From positions 1 through 44,819 of the forward strand of contig CAKKRP010000017.1 in assembly GCA_919902765.1 (NCBI GenBank): 44,819 nt of DNA. Direction: 5' to 3'. Under the pieces are notes generated by a model. It saw nothing but the letters and a program-made list of their open reading frames with translations. It had not been told where the DNA came from and ran no database searches. This document shows, one piece after another, positions 599-29,610 of this stretch. The first letter of the stretch is position 1. Every line of letters begins with the position of its first letter. The stretch comes from Gammaproteobacteria bacterium (lineage in GTDB: Bacteria > Pseudomonadota > Gammaproteobacteria > S012-40). The position numbers were made by a program, and so were the translations under genes.

Positions 599-3500
599 CT
601 ATGGCACGCTACTACTCCAGACCTTGTAATCCATACTAAACTGCTGCCGCACCACTTGTTTCCAAACGGCGGTCGCCTTGCTACCGGCACCAACGCCGAC
701 ACGTGGATTTAATGCGTAGCCGTCAGTGTCGATGGTGTAGGACACGATCAACTCCGGTGACTGATTCCAACCGATATCAGGCCCGGTTTTATGATAATGA
801 TTTGACAATACGCGACTGGTAATGCCATCTGTCGCCAGCCACACCGCCGTAACATGCCCCGCATCATCTAACATAATAGATGGCTCAGTCTCGTCCACGG
901 CCGACATTGAGGCCTCCGCGCTGGACATTGAAACATGCATGGGTTCGCCCCACGTCAATGCACCACTAGCATAGAAATTTGAAAATACGTGATATGCGGT
1001 GTTGCCGTTCATCACTTCTTTTTCAGTCCATACCACCAACACGTCACCGGTGCGATTATATGCCACTGCCGGCACGCCGACGATCTGATCCTTCATTAAC
1101 ACGTTGTAATCTATATTGACCCACGCGCTCCAACTTCCATCAATATATTCCGAGGCCGCTAACGCGCCCCCTTGCGCCAACCCGCCACCATCGGTGTGCA
1201 ATACCATCAGTGGCAATCCCGGCTCACCATGTACGGCAACGTTCAGCGCTAGCGGCGTTGCGCCGGTATAGACGGTTGGCCCGCTCTGGATCGCCGACCA
1301 CACGCTATCCACTCCGTTGTTGATGCTGGCATGTGTCTTCCATTCCCCTTGCGGCAGCACCCCAGACATATGCAACCATGCGACGGTGAGGTTTCCATCG
1401 GCATCCATGGCAACCGCTGGCTCCATCGCAAAGCCATCCGTCACACTCAAGGTTTGCTCGGCCATCCAACTCGCCGCGACCGTACCGCTGGCCGGTATAT
1501 AGCGCCTGACATGTAAATCATTTCCAGTGGCCCAATACACCACCGCATGACCCGCTGTGCTTACCAACAGTTGATAGCTGTCCGGACCGGTAGCCCCGGA
1601 TTTTTCAGGCGTACCCCATGCAGTGCCGTTGAATTTATTAAAATACACATCTGCGCCATACAGCCAAATGGCATAGGCCTCGCCGTTGGCGCCGAACGTC
1701 TTGACTTGAGCGATATCGGAGGTCTTGCTTTGCGCAGCAGGCACCGGGTTTTTACTTGCCCAAGACACCGCCGCCGCATCGTAACGCTGCACGATATCTT
1801 CGCCGTTCGTGAATTTGCCGGTCGCATAATTAAAACCGGTGTTCTTACGCAAGGATAAAAAGCCCGAACCATTTTCACTCCACGCGAGCTCAGGGCCATG
1901 TACCAAGGTCAAAGTATTACTAGGTGCATTGATAGTCACCACATTGACGGGCACACCCCACGTGCCATTGATGACACCTCCACCCCCAGGGCTACCGCCG
2001 CCGCTATTCCCGCCATTGACGGCAGGACGCCATGCGACGGTGCTGTGACAGGTATCGCACGCCGCCGTCGTAGCCGCATGATTCGGACCCTTGCTCGATA
2101 TACCTGCGTAAGCCCCGCCGTGACAGTCTGCACACCCCGCCGTCGTTTGCGTGTGGTCAAATCCCAAAATAGGCGCAAATGCCGTCACTCTATGACACTT
2201 GTCGCACCCATCGCTGGCCGGTACATGGGTGGCGGGTTTGCCCTTAATCGCGCCCAACGCGCCACTATGACAACTTACGCACGTACCCAGTACTTGCGCG
2301 TGGTCTATCGCTATAGGCAACCACGTCGGCAACTTGTTTGCACCCACAGGTGCCGTATGGCATGCGTTACACATATCGCTAGCGAGGATATGTGTAGCAG
2401 GTTTGCCGCGTACTACCGTCGCCGCTGCATCCGTGTGACAAGTCACACAATCGCCCAACACTTCGGCGTGATCGACAAAAACCACGGGTTTCCATACTTC
2501 TGCACTATGGCATGCGCTACATTTGTCTGCCGCTGCAATATGCGTCAGCGGTTTACCACGCGCCGCTACATTATTATGACAAGAAACACAAGTACCATTT
2601 ACCGCCGCATGGTCAACCTTGACGGCGGGTTTCCATTTAACGACTGCATGGCACGCTGCGCAGGTGTCTTGTGTATTAATATGGGTCAGCGGTTTGCCGC
2701 GCGCGGCGGCGCCATTGTGACAAGATACGCAATTGTCGATAAAACCCGCGTGTCCCGGCGGAATCGGCGAGGCAGGTGGCGGTGGCGGGCTGGAGCCCAC
2801 GACCACATCCACCGCTTGTCCTTGCTGCGTGCCTTTGGTGCTAGACCAAATTGCGTAATCCGTTTTGGTAGCGGAACTTGTCGCTTGCCGCCACACGACG
2901 ACCAAACCATTGCTATCGTTTAACGCGATTTGCGGCTGCTCGACTTTGACGCCACGCGTATTGTAAAAGGCCACTAAATCGGCGGCCGCAGGCCACACCG
3001 GATTAGCCGCGAAATCCGTATACGCCACCAATACCTCGCTGGTTAAGGACGTATCCTCCGCCCATGTCAGCGCGATCACTTTGGATGCATTGAGTTTCAC
3101 GTGCGGGGTATGCACGACAGACGCGATGGCACCATTGGCGCCATCTACGAGGCGGCCCAGGGCGCTGACGCGCCGCACTTGATTCCAACCCTTGCTTGGC
3201 GAATAAGTACGCGCATAAATCCCATTTACCGCGAGTGTGCCGACGACTGACTCTTCACGCCACGCCGCCACCGCATTACCCATATCATCAAAACTTACGC
3301 TAAAATCACTGCCCGCCTTGCGGGATGCACGTTGGGCGGTATCAAATGGGCGTGCGCCCATCCAACCATTGGTCGCATCGTACGTCGCAATATGTAAGGC
3401 GCCAGCGTTTGCGGATTCACCCGCAAAATACACTAATTGCGCGCGACCCGACGTGTTATCGACCAGGAGTTGCGGGTTCGCAAGCGTATTCACCGCACCG

Positions 3501-4381
3501 CCCGCAGTACCGATCGTCACGGGCGTACTCCAGCCCGATGCGGTGTACGCTGCCGCCCACAACCCCAACACGCCGGCAGCACTCGTTTCCGTCCAAGCCA
3601 CGGCGACCGTGCCCGGCGTGGTCACAGGGGGCGTGCCGGTATCGGTTACACTCTGAAACATCACCGGGCGCGCCAAATTTATATCTACCGCACTGCGCAC
3701 TAAACTTTTGTCTTCCACCGCCCATTCCGTGCCGTTAAAACGCGCGATATTCAGTGTTGTACTGCCATTTGCGGAATCCACACTACCGACCACTAAGGCG
3801 GTACTATCGTCGCTAGAATTGACCGGCGCGGCCCAATTTCCGGCACCGATGTTAGTCGCGGCAGCATCCCAACCTGCACCTGATTCGTAGCGATTCACCA
3901 TGATGTCGGCACCCTGCCGCCAGGTCGCATAAACATTGCCGCGATAGCGATTGACCGCGAATTCAAACATCGAGGCGTCTGCTAAATTCGCCCCGTTATC
4001 GCTAGGTTGGGTCACGGCCCACGGTTGCGGCGCGATGTATTTATAGGCGGCGTTATGACCATCGGTGTATAAACCCGTTTGAATATCGAGGTCGGTCAAC
4101 AACCGCCAACTGACAAAGGCGTTGCCTTGTCCGTCGCCCACCAATTGCGGCCCGCGCAACATATCGGAGGACTCGTTCGATGCGCTCTCGCTAGCAAGTT
4201 TGGTAGGCACCGACCACGCACCTGCGATGCGGACACGGGCCGTTAGACTGGACGGATCTTCATCCGCTGCGATTCTGCCGGACGTGGGCGGCGATCCTAG
4301 ACCACATCCTGAAATCAATACTGCAATTAGTGCGTTTAGGCCTAAAAACCGCCACGATATTGCGCGAAAATAAAACGACAT
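599..4381 (-). CDS. Decahaem c-type cytochrome lipoprotein with two flanking beta-propeller-like regions
   Basis: A 1260-residue protein. The start is the ATG at 4381, behind GGAGG, rather than the in-frame ATG 15 codons upstream; it then opens directly with a hydrophobic segment and a lipobox (LISGC), so a membrane-anchored lipoprotein is predicted. Residues about 551-779 hold ten CxxCH haem-binding motifs arranged as five two-haem repeats (C-x2-CH, a GKPxTHI stretch, C-x2-CH, then DHA before the next). The extra conserved His in THI and DHA could be distal ligands. On both sides are long stretches (about 40-530 and 800-1260) with many repeats containing AW or TW after small residues, suggesting beta-propeller or sialidase-like folds. 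A PPPPPASPIPPG linker precedes the haem block and a Gly-rich linker follows it. A role in envelope or extracellular electron transfer is inference. No redox partner or cytochrome-maturation gene lies nearby. Confidence 0.85.
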   Translation of the reverse strand: MSFYFRAISWRFLGLNALIAVLISGCGLGSPPTSGRIAADEDPSSLTARVRIAGAWSVPTKLASESASNESSDMLRGPQLVGDGQGNAFVSWRLLTDLDIQTGLYTDGHNAAYKYIAPQPWAVTQPSDNGANLADASMFEFAVNRYRGNVYATWRQGADIMVNRYESGAGWDAAATNIGAGNWAAPVNSSDDSTALVVGSVDSANGSTTLNIARFNGTEWAVEDKSLVRSAVDINLARPVMFQSVTDTGTPPVTTPGTVAVAWTETSAAGVLGLWAAAYTASGWSTPVTIGTAGGAVNTLANPQLLVDNTSGRAQLVYFAGESANAGALHIATYDATNGWMGARPFDTAQRASRKAGSDFSVSFDDMGNAVAAWREESVVGTLAVNGIYARTYSPSKGWNQVRRVSALGRLVDGANGAIASVVHTPHVKLNASKVIALTWAEDTSLTSEVLVAYTDFAANPVWPAAADLVAFYNTRGVKVEQPQIALNDSNGLVVVWRQATSSATKTDYAIWSSTKGTQQGQAVDVVVGSSPPPPPASPIPPGHAGFIDNCVSCHNGAAARGKPLTHINTQDTCAACHAVVKWKPAVKVDHAAVNGTCVSCHNNVAARGKPLTHIAAADKCSACHSAEVWKPVVFVDHAEVLGDCVTCHTDAAATVVRGKPATHILASDMCNACHTAPVGANKLPTWLPIAIDHAQVLGTCVSCHSGALGAIKGKPATHVPASDGCDKCHRVTAFAPILGFDHTQTTAGCADCHGGAYAGISSKGPNHAATTAACDTCHSTVAWRPAVNGGNSGGGSPGGGGVINGTWGVPVNVVTINAPSNTLTLVHGPELAWSENGSGFLSLRKNTGFNYATGKFTNGEDIVQRYDAAAVSWASKNPVPAAQSKTSDIAQVKTFGANGEAYAIWLYGADVYFNKFNGTAWGTPEKSGATGPDSYQLLVSTAGHAVVYWATGNDLHVRRYIPASGTVAASWMAEQTLSVTDGFAMEPAVAMDADGNLTVAWLHMSGVLPQGEWKTHASINNGVDSVWSAIQSGPTVYTGATPLALNVAVHGEPGLPLMVLHTDGGGLAQGGALAASEYIDGSWSAWVNIDYNVLMKDQIVGVPAVAYNRTGDVLVVWTEKEVMNGNTAYHVFSNFYASGALTWGEPMHVSMSSAEASMSAVDETEPSIMLDDAGHVTAVWLATDGITSRVLSNHYHKTGPDIGWNQSPELIVSYTIDTDGYALNPRVGVGAGSKATAVWKQVVRQQFSMDYKVWSSSVP

Positions 4382-4777
4382 GTCACCCCTCCATAGCAGA
4401 CGAATCGGAGAACTATAGCCCCACATACTATGAACAGAGTTTACACGACTGAGGAATTCACAGGTGCTCGCTGTTCAGAAGTATAATTTTATACCACTAT
4501 CCAGCCGCAAACTTAAATAACACTTTCGTTGACGCATACGCGAGGGTCTAGCAAACACATTTTGCGAACATGGCGGTTCGAAAAATGGCAGCACGTCCCT
4601 GTGCCGCACAAAGCCCTGAATTTGTCAGAGCATTAAGATTATATACGCAATTTAGAAAAGTAAAAGGTGGATTTTCAATTTATTAACTTTTCACCAACTC
4701 GCTCGTATCTTTTGTGAGGAAATATCGACACAGTATAATTTCCGTCTGGACAACATCAATGCGTTTTTAAAACTGTA
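4382..4777. other. Intergenic region upstream of the cytochrome gene
   Basis: About 400 bp, more AT-rich than its surroundings, between the 3' end of the RsmB-like gene and the start of the decahaem gene (both minus strand). It must hold the promoter of the cytochrome gene, but I could not pick a convincing -35/-10 pair. A palindromic AT stretch (GTATAATTTTATAC) lies near 4481 and a second TATAAT-like stretch near 4734. No tRNA, no terminator with a T-run and no supported gene were seen. Confidence 0.5.
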
Positions 4778-9945: not shown

Positions 9946-9970
9946 AAGAATTAAGGTATACTCCCCCCCA

Positions 9971-10161
9971 CTCAGGTGTCCCCCCACGGTATTTGCCTTA
10001 AGGGATTAAACGGGAAGTGGGTGCGTCCTTGCGACTAACCCCACGCTGCCCCCGCAACGGTAAACGAGTTCAACCAGCACACGCCACTGCGCAAGCGGGA
10101 AGGCGCTGGGCCTAAGACCTGATGATTAGGCTTAGCTCGTCAGCCCGGAGACCGGCCTGAG
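9971..10161 (+). ncRNA. Cobalamin riboswitch aptamer
   Basis: The consensus blocks occur in order: CGGGAAGTGGGTG, GCTGCCCCCGCAACGGTAA, GCCACTG, GGGAAGGC, and a B12 box that fits the consensus (AGCCCGGAGACCGGCC at 10142-10157). Closing stem P1 is CTCAGG (9971-9976) with CCTGAG (10156-10161). It precedes cobO, so adenosylcobalamin should repress the operon. Confidence 0.96.
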
Positions 10162-10234
10162 CAAATTGTTACTCGGCATTGCGGAGGGCGATGCGCGCGG
10201 TTGGCCTTGCTCATCTCATCGCTCCCGTGCCACC

Positions 10235-10256: not shown

Positions 10257-10301
10257 ATGTTTAGCCGTCATGCATTTCATGTTCTGCGAGGTATTGCGTG
10301 A
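10257..10301 (+). CDS. 14-codon leader ORF coupled to cobO
   Basis: The peptide is MFSRHAFHVLRGIA. Its ATG follows the GGAGG held in the riboswitch hairpin, and its TGA overlaps the GTG start of cobO as GTGA. A second SD (GAGG at 10288-10291) for cobO lies inside it. The arrangement suggests that ribosomes loading on the leader ORF open or reinitiate at cobO. The peptide itself shows no recognisable motif and may matter only through its translation. Reality is inferred from SD spacing and overlap, not from homology. Confidence 0.55.
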   Translation: MFSRHAFHVLRGIA

Positions 10302-10897
10302 ATCCTCCAGACAATAAACATCGCGTGCGTATGCAACGCAAAAAAGAGCATATCGACACGCGCATCGCCGAGGCCAATATTGATCGCGGCGTCATTGTCG
10401 TCAACACCGGCAACGGCAAAGGCAAAAGCAGTTCCGCATTTGGGATGGTGGCGCGCGCGTTAGGACACGACATGCGCGTCGCCGTCATACAATTTATCAA
10501 AGGCTCGTTTTCGACCGGAGAAGAGACCTTTTTTAGGGGTTTTCCGGCAGTCGATTATCATGTGATGGGTGAAGGGTATACCTGGGACACGCAAGATCGC
10601 GAACGCGACACGCGCACCGCGATGACGGCTTGGCATAAAGCCAATGAATTTTTGGTCAATCCCAAAATCTCGTTAATCGTTTTGGATGAACTCAATATCG
10701 CGCTCAAACATCGCTATATTCCAGTCAGCGATGTCATCAGCGCGCTGCGAATTCGTCCGCCACATCAACACGTGGTGATTACCGGCCGCGCGGCCCCGCA
10801 GGAAATTATCGATGTCGCCGACACGGTGACGGAAATGCAAGATATTAAACATGCGTTTCGCGCTGGCGTCACTGCGCAACTTGGCATTGAATTGTAA
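10298..10897 (+). CDS. cobO: Cob(I)yrinic acid a,c-diamide adenosyltransferase (CobO/BtuR/CobA)
   Basis: This enzyme transfers the adenosyl group of ATP to Co(I) corrinoids. The P-loop is NTGNGKGKSSSAFG, followed by VAVIQFIKGSFSTGE, GEGYTWDTQ, the Walker-B-like LIVLDELN and the tail IKHAFRAGVTAQLGIEL, all matching BtuR. Length of 199 residues is normal. The GTG start keeps the N-terminal region (residues 1-30) seen in family members; ATG at 10331 would remove part of it. It is first in the cobalamin operon and probably translationally coupled to the leader ORF. Confidence 0.95.
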   Translation: MNPPDNKHRVRMQRKKEHIDTRIAEANIDRGVIVVNTGNGKGKSSSAFGMVARALGHDMRVAVIQFIKGSFSTGEETFFRGFPAVDYHVMGEGYTWDTQDRERDTRTAMTAWHKANEFLVNPKISLIVLDELNIALKHRYIPVSDVISALRIRPPHQHVVITGRAAPQEIIDVADTVTEMQDIKHAFRAGVTAQLGIEL

Positions 10898-10900
10898 ACA

Positions 10901-11824
10901 ATGTTCAATTTTCTAATCATCATCGCGGCCTTAGTACTGGATCGTTGGTTGGGCGAACCGGCGCGCTGGCACCCATTGGTAGGATTCGGGCGTTTTGCGC
11001 AGCGCGTCGAACACGCGTTATATGGACAGCACGATACGCAGCGCCGCTGGCGCGGCACGCTCGCCGTATTGATAGTCGTAACTCCCGTCATCGCCGTCGC
11101 AGTTGTATTGGGCACCTCCACTTGGCACGCCGTTACGGATATATTTTTATTGTATCTCGTCATCGGCTGGCGCAGCCTGGAAGATCATGCACAGAGGGTT
11201 TTGCTGGCATTAGATCAACATGATTTAAACGCGGCGCGTGTCGCCGTTGGCATGATAGTGAGCCGCGACACGCGCGCGTTATCGACACAAGATATCAGCA
11301 CGGCCACCGTAGAATCCGTGTTGGAAAACGGGAATGACGCCCTCTTCGGCGCGCTGTTTTGGTTTCTTATTTTGGGTGCGCCAGGGGCCGTCACCTATCG
11401 CTTAATCAACACCTTGGATGCGATGTGGGGATACAAAAACACGCGCTATTTACACTTCGGATGGGCCGCCGCGCGCCTCGACGACGCGCTGAATTATGTC
11501 CCGGCGCGCCTAACAGCGCTCGCGTATAGCCTGGCCGGGGACGTGCGCGCGGGCTTCGCTTGTTGGCGTAGGCAAGGCGGATCATGGAAAAGCCCGAATG
11601 CCGGACCGGTGATGGCGGCAGGTGCAGGCAGCCTAGGCGTGACGTTGGGTGGCACCGCGATTTACCACGGGATTGCACAATCACGCCCGGCCCTAGGCCT
11701 TGGTCGTGCGGCCTGCGCATCGGATATTTCCGGCGCGTTAAAATTATTACGCCGCGCGCTGGTAGGGTGGTTAGCGACAATCGCTTTGGTGATACAACTG
11801 CGGTATTTTTATGTCCAATATTGA
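10901..11824 (+). CDS. cbiB: Adenosylcobinamide-phosphate synthase CbiB (CobD in Pseudomonas naming)
   Basis: An integral membrane enzyme that attaches aminopropanol (phosphate) to adenosylcobyric acid. Family hallmarks are LDRWLGEPARWHPLVGFGR at the N-terminus, SRDTRALSTQDISTATVESV in the middle with NGNDALFGALFW, and YRLINTLDAMWGYK. Several hydrophobic segments are visible, and 307 residues is the usual length. It starts 3 nt after cobO and overlaps the next gene by 14 nt. Confidence 0.94.
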   Translation: MFNFLIIIAALVLDRWLGEPARWHPLVGFGRFAQRVEHALYGQHDTQRRWRGTLAVLIVVTPVIAVAVVLGTSTWHAVTDIFLLYLVIGWRSLEDHAQRVLLALDQHDLNAARVAVGMIVSRDTRALSTQDISTATVESVLENGNDALFGALFWFLILGAPGAVTYRLINTLDAMWGYKNTRYLHFGWAAARLDDALNYVPARLTALAYSLAGDVRAGFACWRRQGGSWKSPNAGPVMAAGAGSLGVTLGGTAIYHGIAQSRPALGLGRAACASDISGALKLLRRALVGWLATIALVIQLRYFYVQY

Positions 11825-12818
11825 ACATACTCCACTCTTGCACCACGGCGGCCGCCTACGCGCTGCCGCCGCGCGCTACCGCATTCCGTTGACGGACTGG
11901 TTAGATCTATCCACCGGTATCAACCCGCGCGGCTGGCCGGTACCAACCATTCCCGCCGAACTATGGCAGCGCTTGCCCGAAGACGACGACGCATTAGAAG
12001 AATCCGCGCGCGCGTATTATGATTGCAGCGATGTCTTGCCAACGGCGGGTTCGCAAGCCGCGTTACAACTATTGCCGCGTCTGCGGGCGGCCAGTCGCGT
12101 GGGCGTATTGCATCCGAGTTATCAAGAACATGCATACGCATGGCGGATGGCGGGCCATACCGTACACGAGTTCACACCTGACCGCTTGGAACTGGCAATT
12201 CCACGCCTCGATGTCGTCATCCTCGTCAATCCCAACAATCCCAGTGGCGAGTGTTTTGATCGTGAAACCCTCCTCGCCTGGCATCATGCGCTGGCATTGC
12301 GCGGCGGTTGGTTGATCATCGACGAGGCGTTTATGGATGCGACGCCACACCTGAGTATGGCGCCCTATTGCCATGCGCCAGGATTAATTGTGCTGCGTTC
12401 GCTGGGAAAATTTTTCGGCTTAGCGGGCGCGCGCGTAGGTTTCGTATGTGCCGAAAACAATATACTTGATCCATTGCGTGTACGCTTAGGCCCTTGGCCT
12501 ATCGCATCGCCAGCACGTTGGATAGCGATCAAGGCGCTCAGCGACTCCCCGTGGCAACGCGCTGCACGTGATTATTTGCATACATCGACATGGCATCTCG
12601 CTCAATTGTTGTCGGATCACGCACATGCTCCCCATGGCGGCAGCGCATTTTTTCAATGGCATTGCAGCGATGATGCGCAGGTTTTACATGAGCGACTTGC
12701 GCAACAAGGCATACTCACACGTTTTTTCGATCATCCGAAAAGCATACGTTGCGGGCTACCGCAAGATGTATCGGCCTGGCGCCGCCTGACATCCGCATTA
12801 AAAAACGCTGTTCAATAA
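11811..12818 (+). CDS. cobC: L-threonine-O-3-phosphate decarboxylase (CobC; Salmonella CobD)
   Basis: A PLP enzyme of the aminotransferase fold that makes aminopropanol phosphate for the cobalamin side chain. Visible features are [13 protein letters not shown] and [13 protein letters not shown] at the N-terminus (typical of CobC), NPNNPSGE, the Asp of the cofactor site in [10 protein letters not shown], the Schiff-base Lys in [10 protein letters not shown], and ARVGF. At 335 residues it is of normal length. Its TAA shares one base with the ATG of cobQ (TAATG). Confidence 0.92.
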
Positions 12819-14320
12819 TGCCGCAGACGAATAAAACATTGATGATACAAGGCACGACCTCCGATGCAGGCAAGAGCACGGTGGTCACGGGTCTGTGCCG
12901 CGCATTACTGCGGCGTGGGCTGCGTGTCGCGCCCTTTAAACCGCAGAATATGGCGTTGAACAGCGCCGTCACCTCGGACGGCGGAGAAATCGGCCGTGCC
13001 CAAGCGGTGCAGGCCCACGCCGCCGGTTTAGAACCGCATACCGACATGAATCCGGTGTTATTAAAGCCTACCACCGATCAAGGCGCGCAAATTATTCTGC
13101 ACGGTCACGCTATCGGCACGATGCGTGCGCTGGAATATCACGCCTATAAACCGTTAGCAATGCAGGCCGTCATGAGCTCTTATGCGCGGTTAACGCAGCG
13201 TTATGAAACGATTCTTGTAGAAGGCGCGGGTTCTCCGGCGGAAATTAACCTACGCGTCAATGATATCGCCAATATGGGCTTCGCCGAGGCCGTGGATTGT
13301 CCGGTGATTTTGGTGGCGGACATCGATCGTGGCGGCGTGTTTGCGCATATCGTGGGCACGCTCGCATTGCTCAGCGATTCCGAGCGTACGCGCATTATTG
13401 GCGTGATTATCAATCGTTTTCGCGGCGATCTCGCCTTATTGCAACCCGGATTGGAGTGGTTGGAGCAGGAAATTCACAAACCGGTGTTAGGCGTGCTGCC
13501 GTATTTGCCGAATTTATATCTGGAGGCGGAGGATAGCGTGGCGTTGCGCACCGCCCATACACCGCCGCACACCACGCCACGTTTACGCGTCATCGTGCCG
13601 GCCCTGCCACGCATCAGCAATCACACGGATTTCGACGCATTGCGCCTGCACTCGCGCGTAAACTTGCAATTTACCGGCGCACACACAACTATTCCTGACG
13701 CCGATTTAATCATATTGCCCGGATCAAAAGCGGTGCGTCAAGATCTGGCGTGGTTGCGGGAAAACGCATGGGATCGCGCTATTGCGCGGCATTTGCGCTA
13801 CCACGGCAAGCTCATCGGCCTATGTGGCGGCATGCAAATGTTGGGGCGGCTCATTCATGATCCGCACGGATTAGAAGGCGTCGCGGGCAGCAGCCCCGGG
13901 CTTGGTTTGCTGGATTTTGAAACCACATTAGAACATGCAAAACAATTGCGCCAAGTCAACGGATCGTTATGCCTAGGTGCGGCGCCTGTGCAAGGTTATG
14001 AGATACACATGGGCGTCACGCGCGGCCCAGCCCTGGAATTTCCGGCGGTGCGTTTGGCCACGCACAACGACGGCGCGATCAGCGCGGATGGGCAAATTAT
14101 CGGCAGTTATATACACGGTTTATTCGATCATCCCGAGGCTTGCAAGGCCTTGCTGGCCTGGGCGGGCGACACGTCCGGCACGGCCTTGGATATGGCGCTG
14201 TTGCGCGATCAACACATTGATGCGCTCGCGGATATGCTGGAACAACACCTTGATATCGACGCACTGATCAACTCAATGCGCAATTTCAATTTAAAAAAAT
14301 ATGCGGCGATCAGCGCATGA
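12818..14320 (+). CDS. cobQ: Cobyric acid synthase CobQ
   Basis: A glutamine-dependent amidotransferase that converts adenosylcobyrinic acid a,c-diamide to adenosylcobyric acid. It has an N-terminal synthetase P-loop ([17 protein letters not shown]), [14 protein letters not shown] and a [11 protein letters not shown] stretch, then a C-terminal class I-like glutaminase domain with the catalytic Cys in [10 protein letters not shown] and His in YIHGLFD. The start is the ATG at 12818, which overlaps the previous stop; the in-frame ATG 23 codons upstream lies inside cobC and lacks family sequence. 500 residues, usual length. Confidence 0.95.
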
Positions 14321-25301: not shown

Positions 25302-25988
25302 TTAGCGTCTTTGCGCTGCGTGCTCTGTTTCTACAACTACGGTTTTAAGATGGCTGGACAGGGCATGACCTATCACTTCGCTACGTGCAACGATGGTTTT
25401 TAACCAGCGGCCAAAGCCATTATAAACAGCGACAGCGGGGATGGCGACCATCAACCCTAAGGCGGTTGCAACCAAGGCCTCCGAGATGCCGGTCATGATA
25501 TTCGTCGCGCCGCCGGTGACAGCACCCGCTTTTGCATTGACCGCCAGTGCGGCGAATGCCTTAATAATACCCAGTACGGTGCCGAACAATCCGATGAACG
25601 GCGCATTATTCCCCAAGGTGCCTAAATAGGCGAGATAACGCTCATAATTCAGGCGTTCACGCACGATAGTCGCACGCACAATTTCTTCAACGGCCTCCGC
25701 GCCGCGTGCCACACCTTTCATGGCTTGACGCAACACTTCGGCCTCTAGGCCACACTTATCGCCCACCGCGCGTAGCGCGCCATCCAAATCACCGGCAATT
25801 AATTTGTCGCTGATATCTTTGACATCGCCCAGGGTATTTCGACGATAAAACAAGGCCCTCTCTATCATTATCGCCAGCGACGCGATAGACAGCGCTATCA
25901 ATAACCATATCACCCACCCCGTGCCTAGCGTCTCGAATATTCTTGCGAATAAATTGATGATGGGTTCGTTCATTGCCGCCTGGTTCAT
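25302..25988 (-). CDS. exbB: ExbB/TolQ-family (MotA/TolQ/ExbB) proton channel protein
   Basis: A 228-residue inner-membrane protein with three hydrophobic segments (about 20-40, 120-145, 165-190). The conserved LGTLGNNAPFIGLFGTVLGIIKAF block and the ALVATALGLMVAIPAVAVYN segment with the pore Thr are clear. Start at the ATG after AGGAGA. It is followed 24 nt later by exbD and preceded by the lipoprotein gene, so it belongs to the TonB operon. Confidence 0.93.
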   Translation of the reverse strand: MNQAAMNEPIINLFARIFETLGTGWVIWLLIALSIASLAIMIERALFYRRNTLGDVKDISDKLIAGDLDGALRAVGDKCGLEAEVLRQAMKGVARGAEAVEEIVRATIVRERLNYERYLAYLGTLGNNAPFIGLFGTVLGIIKAFAALAVNAKAGAVTGGATNIMTGISEALVATALGLMVAIPAVAVYNGFGRWLKTIVARSEVIGHALSSHLKTVVVETEHAAQRR

Positions 25989-26997: not shown

Positions 26998-29610
26998 TTA
27001 AAATTCTCCTCGGATGCCTAGCACGGGCAAAATCGGGAGACCGCGCAATGACGAACTTTTTGCATAACGATAATCCCATAGCGTGGCCTCGGGATTTTCA
27101 GAATTGAAAATGTTTTGGATATCTAAGTAGGCCGCGAGTTTCCATTGATCGTACGTCCACAATCGTTCGACACGCGCATCCAGTTGACTGAATGTCGCAC
27201 CGCGCGCCGAACCTGGCGCGCCATAAACGGGGGTATACCGATTATTGTCCGCATCATAGGTCGCACCAATCACCGGGGTCACGGGTCGCCCCGTGGTCAT
27301 GCGATAGCGTGTGCCTATTTCCCAACCTTTGGCAAATTTATAGGATGCGACCAAGGCCGCCATATGGGTTTGGTCGTAAGTACTGGGCACATAGGTGCCA
27401 ATGGTTTTATTGAAATCTTCAGCGCGCGACCACGTATAACTCAACCACCCGTAAAATCGTTCTGTCACATCATGTTTTAATAATATTTCTAATCCATAGG
27501 CGTGACCCGTGCCCGTGTTGTTAAAATTCTCGGGTACATAGGCGCCATCGCGCAACACGATATCGCGCGAGGCGACCGACAAATTCGATCGCCGACTATA
27601 ATAGGTTTGCATATCAAGGAATATGCCGGGTGTCAGTTGAAACTCGGCACCGCCACCTAATTGTTCGCTCTGTTCTAAACTCAGGTAGGGGTTGCCCAAT
27701 ATACGATCAAGGCGTTGCGGTAACGGTGTCTGACGATAAAGCCCGGCTCCGCCTTTCAGCGCGATAGTATCAGAGATGTCGTAACGCGCCGCAAATCGGG
27801 GCTCCAACGAGGTAGTATATCCGCCCGGCAATTTGTATTCTTCAACGCGCAAGCCTGGAATAATTTTCCACGCCTGTTTAGGTACCCAAATAATCTCTGT
27901 ATATACCGCACCCGCGCCGCCATAGATATTCTGTTCGCGCACTGCAGGCGCGGGGTTTGGATCTGCGGCGGTGGGATAACCCGCCGTTTCAAAACGCAAC
28001 TGATAGCGCGAGGCGAATCCTTCAGCGCCGATTTCAAATTTTACATCAGGGGAAAATTCCTTGCGTGCAAAACCGCGCAATCCGATATCAATGGAATCTA
28101 CATTCACTTTCAGCAATTCATTCACATCGGTGCTGGTGGGCGTAGTCCCCACCATGGGCGCGACCGAGACATTCCACCCGTCAGACAGGGTAGTCGTCCA
28201 TAACAAGCGTGTGCGATGGAATCCCGTAGCGCTATTCAATGAAAAATTCTGCGCGGGCACCACCCCGGTGGTGGAAATTTTTAACACGTCGTTAGAGCCG
28301 AACGTAGTCGCTTCGAAACGGTGTCCCGCCGCAGACAATGAATAGCGACCTTGATAATCCCAATAATAGGGAATTGCGATGACCGAACCTTGCCCCGCCG
28401 GTGTCGCCGCTTTGATCGCCAACGGCAACCACGCATCGACATAACTGCGCCGCGCCGCCAGGGTTAACGTCCCATATTCGCTATTCTCTCCCAGAGGCGT
28501 TTCAGTGTAAAACCGCGCATCCAACATGTCGATCTTCACCTCGCCGTGCATACGCGTAATTTTTGGCACATGCGTATCTACATCGACGACACCACCGATG
28601 GCGTGGCCGTATTTAGGACCAAACACCCCCGGATAAAAATTAATCGCTTCTATAAATGAGGGCGTGATAACCGACGGACCCGCACCGAAATGAAACAACA
28701 ACGGCACCGGCACACCGTCGATCAGCACTTGGCTATCGTTAGGCCGCGAACCGCGTACGATGAGCGCGCCCGAAATAAAGGCAGGCCGCCCCATGCCTGG
28801 CAGGCTCTGCAACACGCGCAACGGATCGCCCAAGGTGCCCGGCACCGATTTCAGTTCTTCTTTTTGCAAAACGCGCTTGACGACATCTTTTTTATCGCGC
28901 TCGCCCACCACGACAATTTCAGCGCCTCCCGCGATATTTTTCAATAAATATGCGGTAATTTCCACGACTTGCCCATCGGGAATATCTTCGGTAATTTCAT
29001 ATTTGCGATGTTTTAGTTCGGTAATCCGTATATGCGTTTTACCCAACGTGATGCCCCGCAATTCAAAATGGCCTTGTGCATCCGTTTCGGCAGTTAGATT
29101 TTGCTCGGGGATGTACACAACCGCGCCGCGCAACGGATTACGCGTGCCGCGCTCCAACACGCGTCCTTTGAGGTTGACAGGTTTTTCCACCTCCGGCGGA
29201 GGCGGCGCAAGGACTTCAAAACGATAACGATATTCAATGCGCACCAGGGCGGGTTTGCCATCGACCTCTGCGGGCGTAAATTCGGTTAGCAATAAGGCGG
29301 ATTTTGCCAATTCATCTAACGCGGGGTTAGGCGCGGAAGTCACCTCGACATGCGTGACCTTGCCTTGCGCATCTATGTCGATTTGCAATACCACCTCGAC
29401 GCTTTCACCAGGCAACAGAATTCCCGGGGGAATAGGCGCTTCGACCGCCTTGAGCAATTCGGGCGCCTTGGTCAATACACCCGGTGCGGCTGGCACACTT
29501 TCGGCCTCGCGGGATATTCCACGGTCATCGAATGCGTAGACATCGCTCATACAAATGCCACCGGCCAGGAACATAACCATTATTATTACATGCTTGCTTT
29601 TTTTTGTCAC
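26998..29610 (-). CDS. TonB-dependent receptor with N-terminal TonB-like and carboxypeptidase-regulatory domains
   Basis: An 870-residue outer-membrane receptor. In order: signal peptide (1-26), a TonB C-terminal-like domain (about 60-133; SVEVVLQIDIDAQGKVTHVEV, FTPAEVDGKPALVRIEYRYRF), a carboxypeptidase-regulatory-like beta domain (about 145-225; RVLERGTRNPLRGAVVYIPE), a plug domain (about 245-350; ALIVRGSRPNDSQVLIDGVP, YGHAIGGVVDVDTHVP) and a 22-strand-type barrel ending in GIRGEF with terminal Phe. No signal-transduction STN domain. The start is GTG behind GGAGG. Receptors with an internal TonB-like domain are known to me mainly from myxobacteria and relatives. Substrate unknown. First in an operon with lipoprotein, ExbB, ExbD and TonB. 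Confidence 0.9.
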   Translation of the reverse strand: MTKKSKHVIIMVMFLAGGICMSDVYAFDDRGISREAESVPAAPGVLTKAPELLKAVEAPIPPGILLPGESVEVVLQIDIDAQGKVTHVEVTSAPNPALDELAKSALLLTEFTPAEVDGKPALVRIEYRYRFEVLAPPPPEVEKPVNLKGRVLERGTRNPLRGAVVYIPEQNLTAETDAQGHFELRGITLGKTHIRITELKHRKYEITEDIPDGQVVEITAYLLKNIAGGAEIVVVGERDKKDVVKRVLQKEELKSVPGTLGDPLRVLQSLPGMGRPAFISGALIVRGSRPNDSQVLIDGVPVPLLFHFGAGPSVITPSFIEAINFYPGVFGPKYGHAIGGVVDVDTHVPKITRMHGEVKIDMLDARFYTETPLGENSEYGTLTLAARRSYVDAWLPLAIKAATPAGQGSVIAIPYYWDYQGRYSLSAAGHRFEATTFGSNDVLKISTTGVVPAQNFSLNSATGFHRTRLLWTTTLSDGWNVSVAPMVGTTPTSTDVNELLKVNVDSIDIGLRGFARKEFSPDVKFEIGAEGFASRYQLRFETAGYPTAADPNPAPAVREQNIYGGAGAVYTEIIWVPKQAWKIIPGLRVEEYKLPGGYTTSLEPRFAARYDISDTIALKGGAGLYRQTPLPQRLDRILGNPYLSLEQSEQLGGGAEFQLTPGIFLDMQTYYSRRSNLSVASRDIVLRDGAYVPENFNNTGTGHAYGLEILLKHDVTERFYGWLSYTWSRAEDFNKTIGTYVPSTYDQTHMAALVASYKFAKGWEIGTRYRMTTGRPVTPVIGATYDADNNRYTPVYGAPGSARGATFSQLDARVERLWTYDQWKLAAYLDIQNIFNSENPEATLWDYRYAKSSSLRGLPILPVLGIRGEF

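Follow-up and report, generated by a model that had tools for sequence, protein, structure and literature searches.

What is the role of a lipoprotein that carries ten haem-binding motifs between two propeller-like regions? A gene for such a protein lies in a 44,819-nucleotide stretch of gammaproteobacterial DNA (contig CAKKRP010000017.1), called the window here. The minus-strand open reading frame spans 599–4426 and encodes 1275 aa counted from the first ATG. Residues are numbered from that codon unless the numbering of the original prediction is stated. The start at 4381 (M16) is preferred because a Shine-Dalgarno-like GGAGGGG stands immediately before that ATG, and it gives a 1260-residue protein. 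Promoter and terminator scans gave results no better than chance. The gene and its parts are listed below with the evidence for each.

4386..4392, minus strand: Shine-Dalgarno-like GGAGGGG ahead of the ATG at 4381 (sequence read)
599..4381, minus strand: coding sequence of the propeller-haem-propeller lipoprotein, with the reading frame open to 4426 (sequence read)
4304..4381, minus strand: lipoprotein signal peptide ending in LISG-C, with Cys41 and Gly at +2 (direct reading and orthologues)
2804..4246, minus strand: N-terminal propeller domain, residues 61–541 (homology to the C flank, repeat count, fold match and orthologues)
2756..2791, minus strand: Pro-rich linker, residues 546–557 (direct reading)
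2033..2752, minus strand: ten-haem block of five two-haem repeats, residues 559–798 (motifs, Pfam and kinship to giant cytochromes)
1976..2017, minus strand: Gly-rich linker, residues 804–817 (direct reading)
602..1975, minus strand: C-terminal propeller domain, residues 818–1275 (AlphaFold2, Foldseek and repeat count)

The architecture of the protein is firm. The signal peptide ends in a lipobox with Cys at +1 (RAISWRFLGLNALIAVLISG-C), and the product is a predicted lipoprotein. The lipobox (LISGC, residues 37–41) is found at the equivalent place in orthologues. Cysteines are confined to Cys41 and the ten CxxCH motifs. The original prediction had described ten CxxCH motifs in five two-haem repeats between two flanks of AW-type repeats, with Pro-rich and Gly-rich joints and a lipid anchor, and the sequence bears out each of these parts.

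The CxxCH motifs start at residues 566, 589, 613, 636, 660, 686, 716, 741, 765 and 790 (residues 551–775 in the numbering of the original prediction). Shuffled versions of the protein contain a mean of 0.011 such motifs and a maximum of 1. The five two-haem repeats are 47–56 residues each. The block also holds exactly ten non-motif histidines, one per haem, at GKPxTH and xDH positions. These would suffice for bis-His ligation of all the haems, which are presumably loaded. Pfam matches in the block are to Cytochrome_C7, Paired_CXXCH_1 and Cytochrom_c3_2. A joint AlphaFold2 model of the N flank and haem block reached pTM 0.54, and its haem part cannot be relied on, since the model contains no haems.

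The closest kin of the haem block are giant cytochromes. Almost the entire block aligns both with a 67-haem cytochrome of the same genome (46%, 231 bits) and with the 47-haem member of a PCC3-type cluster (41% over 263 columns, 203 bits). Matches to the 21-haem cytochrome of periplasmic type (24%, 63 bits) and to the MtoA-like decahaem (27% over part, 55 bits) of the same genome are weak. Haem spacing is 24.9 aa per haem, compared with 24–25 in the giant cytochromes of the same genome. Judged by sequence likeness, the block is a short segment of that genome's giant "wire" cytochromes (46–67 haems) and no generic decahaem. A generic DmsE/MtrA decahaem was rejected on the TIGR03508 score, 57.7 bits against a cut-off of 192.2, and on the weak match to the genome's own MtoA-like protein.

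The two flanks (481 residues at the N terminus, 458 at the C terminus) align as homologues from end to end, with 21% identity and a phmmer E-value of 2.5e-16. The symmetrical layout thus reflects a domain duplication, and this homology rules out two unrelated flanks. A blade profile built from the G004 and G007 orthologues only, with the window sequence left out, found approximately eight AW-type repeats per flank, several of which are weak, and zero in the haem block. The repeat length is approximately 57 aa per blade. The blade number, about eight per flank, is a repeat count and not a reading of inspected coordinates, and the rings are expected to close.

Structure prediction points the same way. 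An AlphaFold2 model of the C flank, made from four alignment rows, is all beta with pTM 0.80 and pLDDT 74.8. Its top PDB matches in Foldseek are propellers, namely Photorhabdus PLL/PHL lectins, GH93 enzymes, PL24 lyases and sialidases. The N-flank model is weaker, and its top Foldseek matches are again propeller proteins, PHL among them. The likeness to lectins is at the level of fold (13–15% identity; TM 0.44–0.49, normalized by query length), and scores for other propeller classes are similar. Both flanks are predicted to be beta-propellers. A single non-propeller domain was ruled out by the flank homology, the C-flank model, the Foldseek matches and the repeat count. The propeller-haem-propeller layout of the original prediction is thereby upheld.

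No Pfam, NCBIfam or PDB sequence family matched the flanks above cut-off, so they are treated as an unnamed propeller family. Sialidase, NHL and PQQ propellers were considered and found no support in Pfam and motif searches. The flanks contain no Asp-box, and BNR_4 falls below cut-off (E = 0.008–0.04). The PQQ tryptophan-docking motif A.D..TG...W is absent from both flanks, and no PQQ family in Pfam matches them. Residues invariant across all six flanks are mostly Trp, Gly and Pro, i.e., structural, and include no lectin or other known binding-site signature.

These searches bear on whether the protein could be a redox enzyme, with catalytic propellers (of oxidase, lyase or glycosidase type, or with a PQQ or copper cofactor) and haems that shuttle electrons. 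Propellers hold the active sites of many redox enzymes, including cd1 nitrite reductase and the PQQ dehydrogenases. Sialidases, GH93 and PL24 enzymes are among the fold matches, and in the FoxE/FoxY pair an eight-bladed propeller is the separate partner of a di-haem protein (PMC10654088). However, catalysis would have to be reconciled with the missing Asp-box and PQQ docking motif, with PQQ, sialidase and NHL scores all below cut-off, with flanks that lack Cys and have few conserved polar residues, and with the existence of haem-less multi-propeller relatives. An enzymatic role is quite improbable.

Proteins with the same order of parts, which the original prediction had proposed to look for, are encoded in two further genera of the uncultured gammaproteobacterial order to which the window belongs. 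The G004 orthologue is full length with 1219 aa and 10 haems. The G007 orthologue ("Gammaproteobacteria bacterium isolate 8_1_Jan_SF_Bin103", contig JAOUJM010000156.1) is full length with 1322 aa and 14 haems. Identity between genera is approximately 31% overall, with the haem-block motifs kept. G001, a genome of the same genus, carries an N-terminal fragment (the first 266 residues) that runs to the end of a contig, next to rsmB as in the window. Conservation across genera and the rsmB synteny in G001 rule out an assembly chimera. The lipoprotein is present in 4 of the 13 genomes examined from the order (a single family).

Wider searches returned little. Searches of contigs gave no match with the whole protein and matched only the G007 contig with the C-flank profile, and the C flank matched no plasmids. 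Samples from outside the order (369 genomes of the class and 398 of the phylum) yielded one full-length flank domain, in G048, where it stands alone without haems. The remaining matches there were partial and to generic AW-repeat proteins.

Within the order, the parts occur in other combinations. Four lipoproteins of G004 (818, 824, 791 and 744 aa) have one propeller followed by 10–14 haems, and the last three of these are encoded in tandem. Haem-less lipoproteins with one to four propellers occur in G004 and G007. The haem protein is no isolated oddity but one conserved form within a modular protein family of a single uncultured order. A domain tree groups the C-terminal propellers of the haem protein with those of the haem-less multi-propeller proteins (one clade, 95/96) and places the N-type propellers outside that clade. 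The tree suggests an old propeller tandem that either gained a haem block by insertion or lost one; branches are long and the details are unsafe.

Two observations concern the surroundings of these relatives. The three tandem paralogues (L095, G004:C5, 3673–10933, minus strand) have two formylglycine-generating-enzyme-like proteins encoded further along. At three places (L092, L093 and L096), haem-less forms with two to four propellers adjoin proteins that combine PPGxHRMPDG repeats with a Met-rich, barrel-like C-terminal part, a pairing that matches no named family and is possibly a two-gene surface system.

The family also bears on whether the haems matter to the main function. The protein may be an adhesin or matrix lipoprotein that needs no electron path, its haems being secondary features that store charge, sense redox state or persist as an inherited insertion. 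An independent job for the propellers is suggested by the haem-less multi-propeller lipoproteins beside a barrel-like protein, and haem number varies from 10 to 14. Secondary haems, however, fit poorly with haem-block motifs that are kept between genera at approximately 31% overall identity, and with haem-bearing members that have multiplied into tandem paralogues. We consider this reading unlikely.

The original prediction noted that no porin, partner cytochrome or maturation gene is adjacent, and nothing of the kind is found beside the gene. Its neighbors in the window are rsmB, an ABC transporter, amt and cob genes. Pfam scans of 20 other window ORFs found no cytochromes. The window holds no second multihaem gene, and its other CxxCH or CxxxCH motifs are single and scattered. 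Linkage to a porin or cytochrome is also absent beside the G004 and G007 orthologues, and no conserved operon partner was found.

Elsewhere, the same genome encodes a rich set of electron-transfer proteins. A PCC3-type cluster lies on a contig other than the window's (L033, G000:C139, 5963–15155, minus strand). It encodes a 47-haem cytochrome (1241 aa), a TPR-plus-barrel-like protein (759 aa), a 21-haem cytochrome (527 aa) and an inner-membrane protein (317 aa). The inner-membrane protein contains two WX3HX13H motifs and one SGXXG motif, which are given for the PCC3 inner-membrane protein (PMC5566968). The inner-membrane protein and porin of this cluster have strong-scoring matches in G001, G004 and G007, and a cluster like it, with cytochromes of 47 and 21 haems, is present in G004 (L099). 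Two giant cytochromes with 67 CxxCH (L031, 6527–11764, plus strand) and 46 CxxCH (L032, 1–3890, minus strand) lie outside any porin cluster seen. An MtoAB-like locus (L107, G000:C117, 6656–10238) encodes a monohaem protein, a 347-aa decahaem and a 723-aa porin of the MtrB/PioB family. CcmF is also encoded.

By these gene contents, the host cell carries several electron conduits. The suggestion that the lipoprotein may be self-contained is not supported, since conduits and CcmF are encoded elsewhere in the genome, from whose giant cytochromes the haem block represents a segment. A further locus (L034, G000:C57, 6301–10649) encodes a second porin-like protein adjoining 7- and 14-haem ORFs. One in-frame TAG lies in this region, which may reflect a disrupted cytochrome gene or an assembly error.

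Comparison with known systems places the haem domain with a known kind and the propellers with a known fold. The best fold matches of the C flank are the Photorhabdus PLL/PHL lectins (6rgr, 8q81). These lectins have seven blades of approximately 46 aa each, whereas the flanks have about eight of approximately 57 aa, share 13–15% identity with them, and have no identified sugar-site residues in common with them. Ten haems and a link to outer-membrane electron transfer are shared with MtrA/MtoA (DmsE-family) and MtrC-type decahaems. MtrC and OmcA have split-barrel domains of their own, not propellers.

PCC3 extracellular multihaem cytochromes (MHCs) have been described by He et al. 2017 (PMC5566968) and in Gallionellaceae (PMC10734462). 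The lipoprotein shares their haem-repeat type, with approximately 24 residues per haem and a separate distal His, and its haem block is 41% identical to the 47-haem cytochrome of the C139 cluster. In contrast, it has only 10 haems, two large propeller flanks and a lipid anchor. Described PCC3 wires are encoded with a porin, a periplasmic MHC and an inner-membrane protein, whereas the lipoprotein gene is unlinked to a porin. It is not classed as a PCC3 subunit because its gene lies outside such a cluster and its chain carries large domains besides the haem wire.

Propellers have been associated with large multihaem cytochromes in other extracellular electron transfer systems. Six-bladed propeller proteins are encoded beside 16/26-haem cytochromes in SEEP-SRB1 and Geobacter (PMC5539420) and in Desulfovibrio ferrophilus (DFE_0451/0452/0463; PMC8322314), and the NHL proteins UetHI belong to the Uet conduit (PMC10734462). 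The lipoprotein shares this association. However, those propellers are separate polypeptides with six or seven blades or of NHL type, whereas its own belong to a different, unnamed family and flank the haem wire on either side within a single polypeptide. The original prediction had called the layout unfamiliar, and a search of literature outside subscription journals found no published propeller-haem-propeller fusion. The combination, the two-sided duplication and the surrounding family appear new.

We tentatively favor an outer-membrane lipoprotein whose propellers dock a short ten-haem wire to surface partners in extracellular electron transfer, a reading to which we give somewhat less than an even chance. 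The lipid anchor would hold the protein, most likely on the outer surface. The propellers would bind a surface partner, for which the candidates are a giant cytochrome or porin complex, a mineral, another cell and the glycan matrix that the cell itself makes. Many fold matches of both flanks are lectins or glycan-active enzymes. Electrons would then pass through the ten bis-His haems between the bound partner and the cell's own porin-cytochrome conduits. We infer a surface role mainly because the haem block is of outer-surface type and the cell has several conduits. Points that weigh against this reading are the missing linkage to porin or cytochrome genes, the lack of a known binding-site signature in the flanks and a likeness to lectins that is confined to the fold. 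The earlier suggestion that the protein conducts electrons and brings its own binding modules gains support from these results, with binding as its putative element.

The protein may instead face the periplasm as a carrier, a reading that we consider doubtful. Lol sorting to the outer membrane places lipoproteins in the inner leaflet by default, the Gly at +2 of the lipobox fits ordinary Lol sorting, and we know of no surface-export signal. Propeller proteins beside 16/26-haem cytochromes have also been predicted to be periplasmic (PMC5539420). A periplasmic carrier is, however, at odds with a haem block of the extracellular giant type rather than the 21-haem or MtoA type, and with fold relatives that are mostly extracellular glycan binders or enzymes.

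On the favored reading of a surface-docked wire, a broader proposal can be made, which is speculative and somewhat less likely to be right. Propeller-clamped haem wires may form a new class of extracellular electron-transfer component. They would act as modular connectors built from interchangeable propellers, of which a protein may have one, two or several, haem-bearing or not, and would link short wires to giant cytochromes, to the matrix or to minerals in cells of an uncultured order that runs several outer-membrane conduits at once. It is an open question how porin conduits are connected to the long cytochrome wires of the outer surface and to their targets. Here, a wire and binding modules are joined in one polypeptide, and the one-propeller, two-propeller and haem-less variants make docking testable domain by domain.

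Two other loci in the window were noted. A TonB-dependent receptor (26998–29610, minus strand) matches a TonB C-terminal domain at residues 72–132 and has a carboxypeptidase-regulatory-like domain preceding the plug; an ExbB-like gene is nearby (25302–25988). An ordinary cobalamin riboswitch (9957–10174, plus strand, 95 bits) precedes the cob cluster at 10298–14320.
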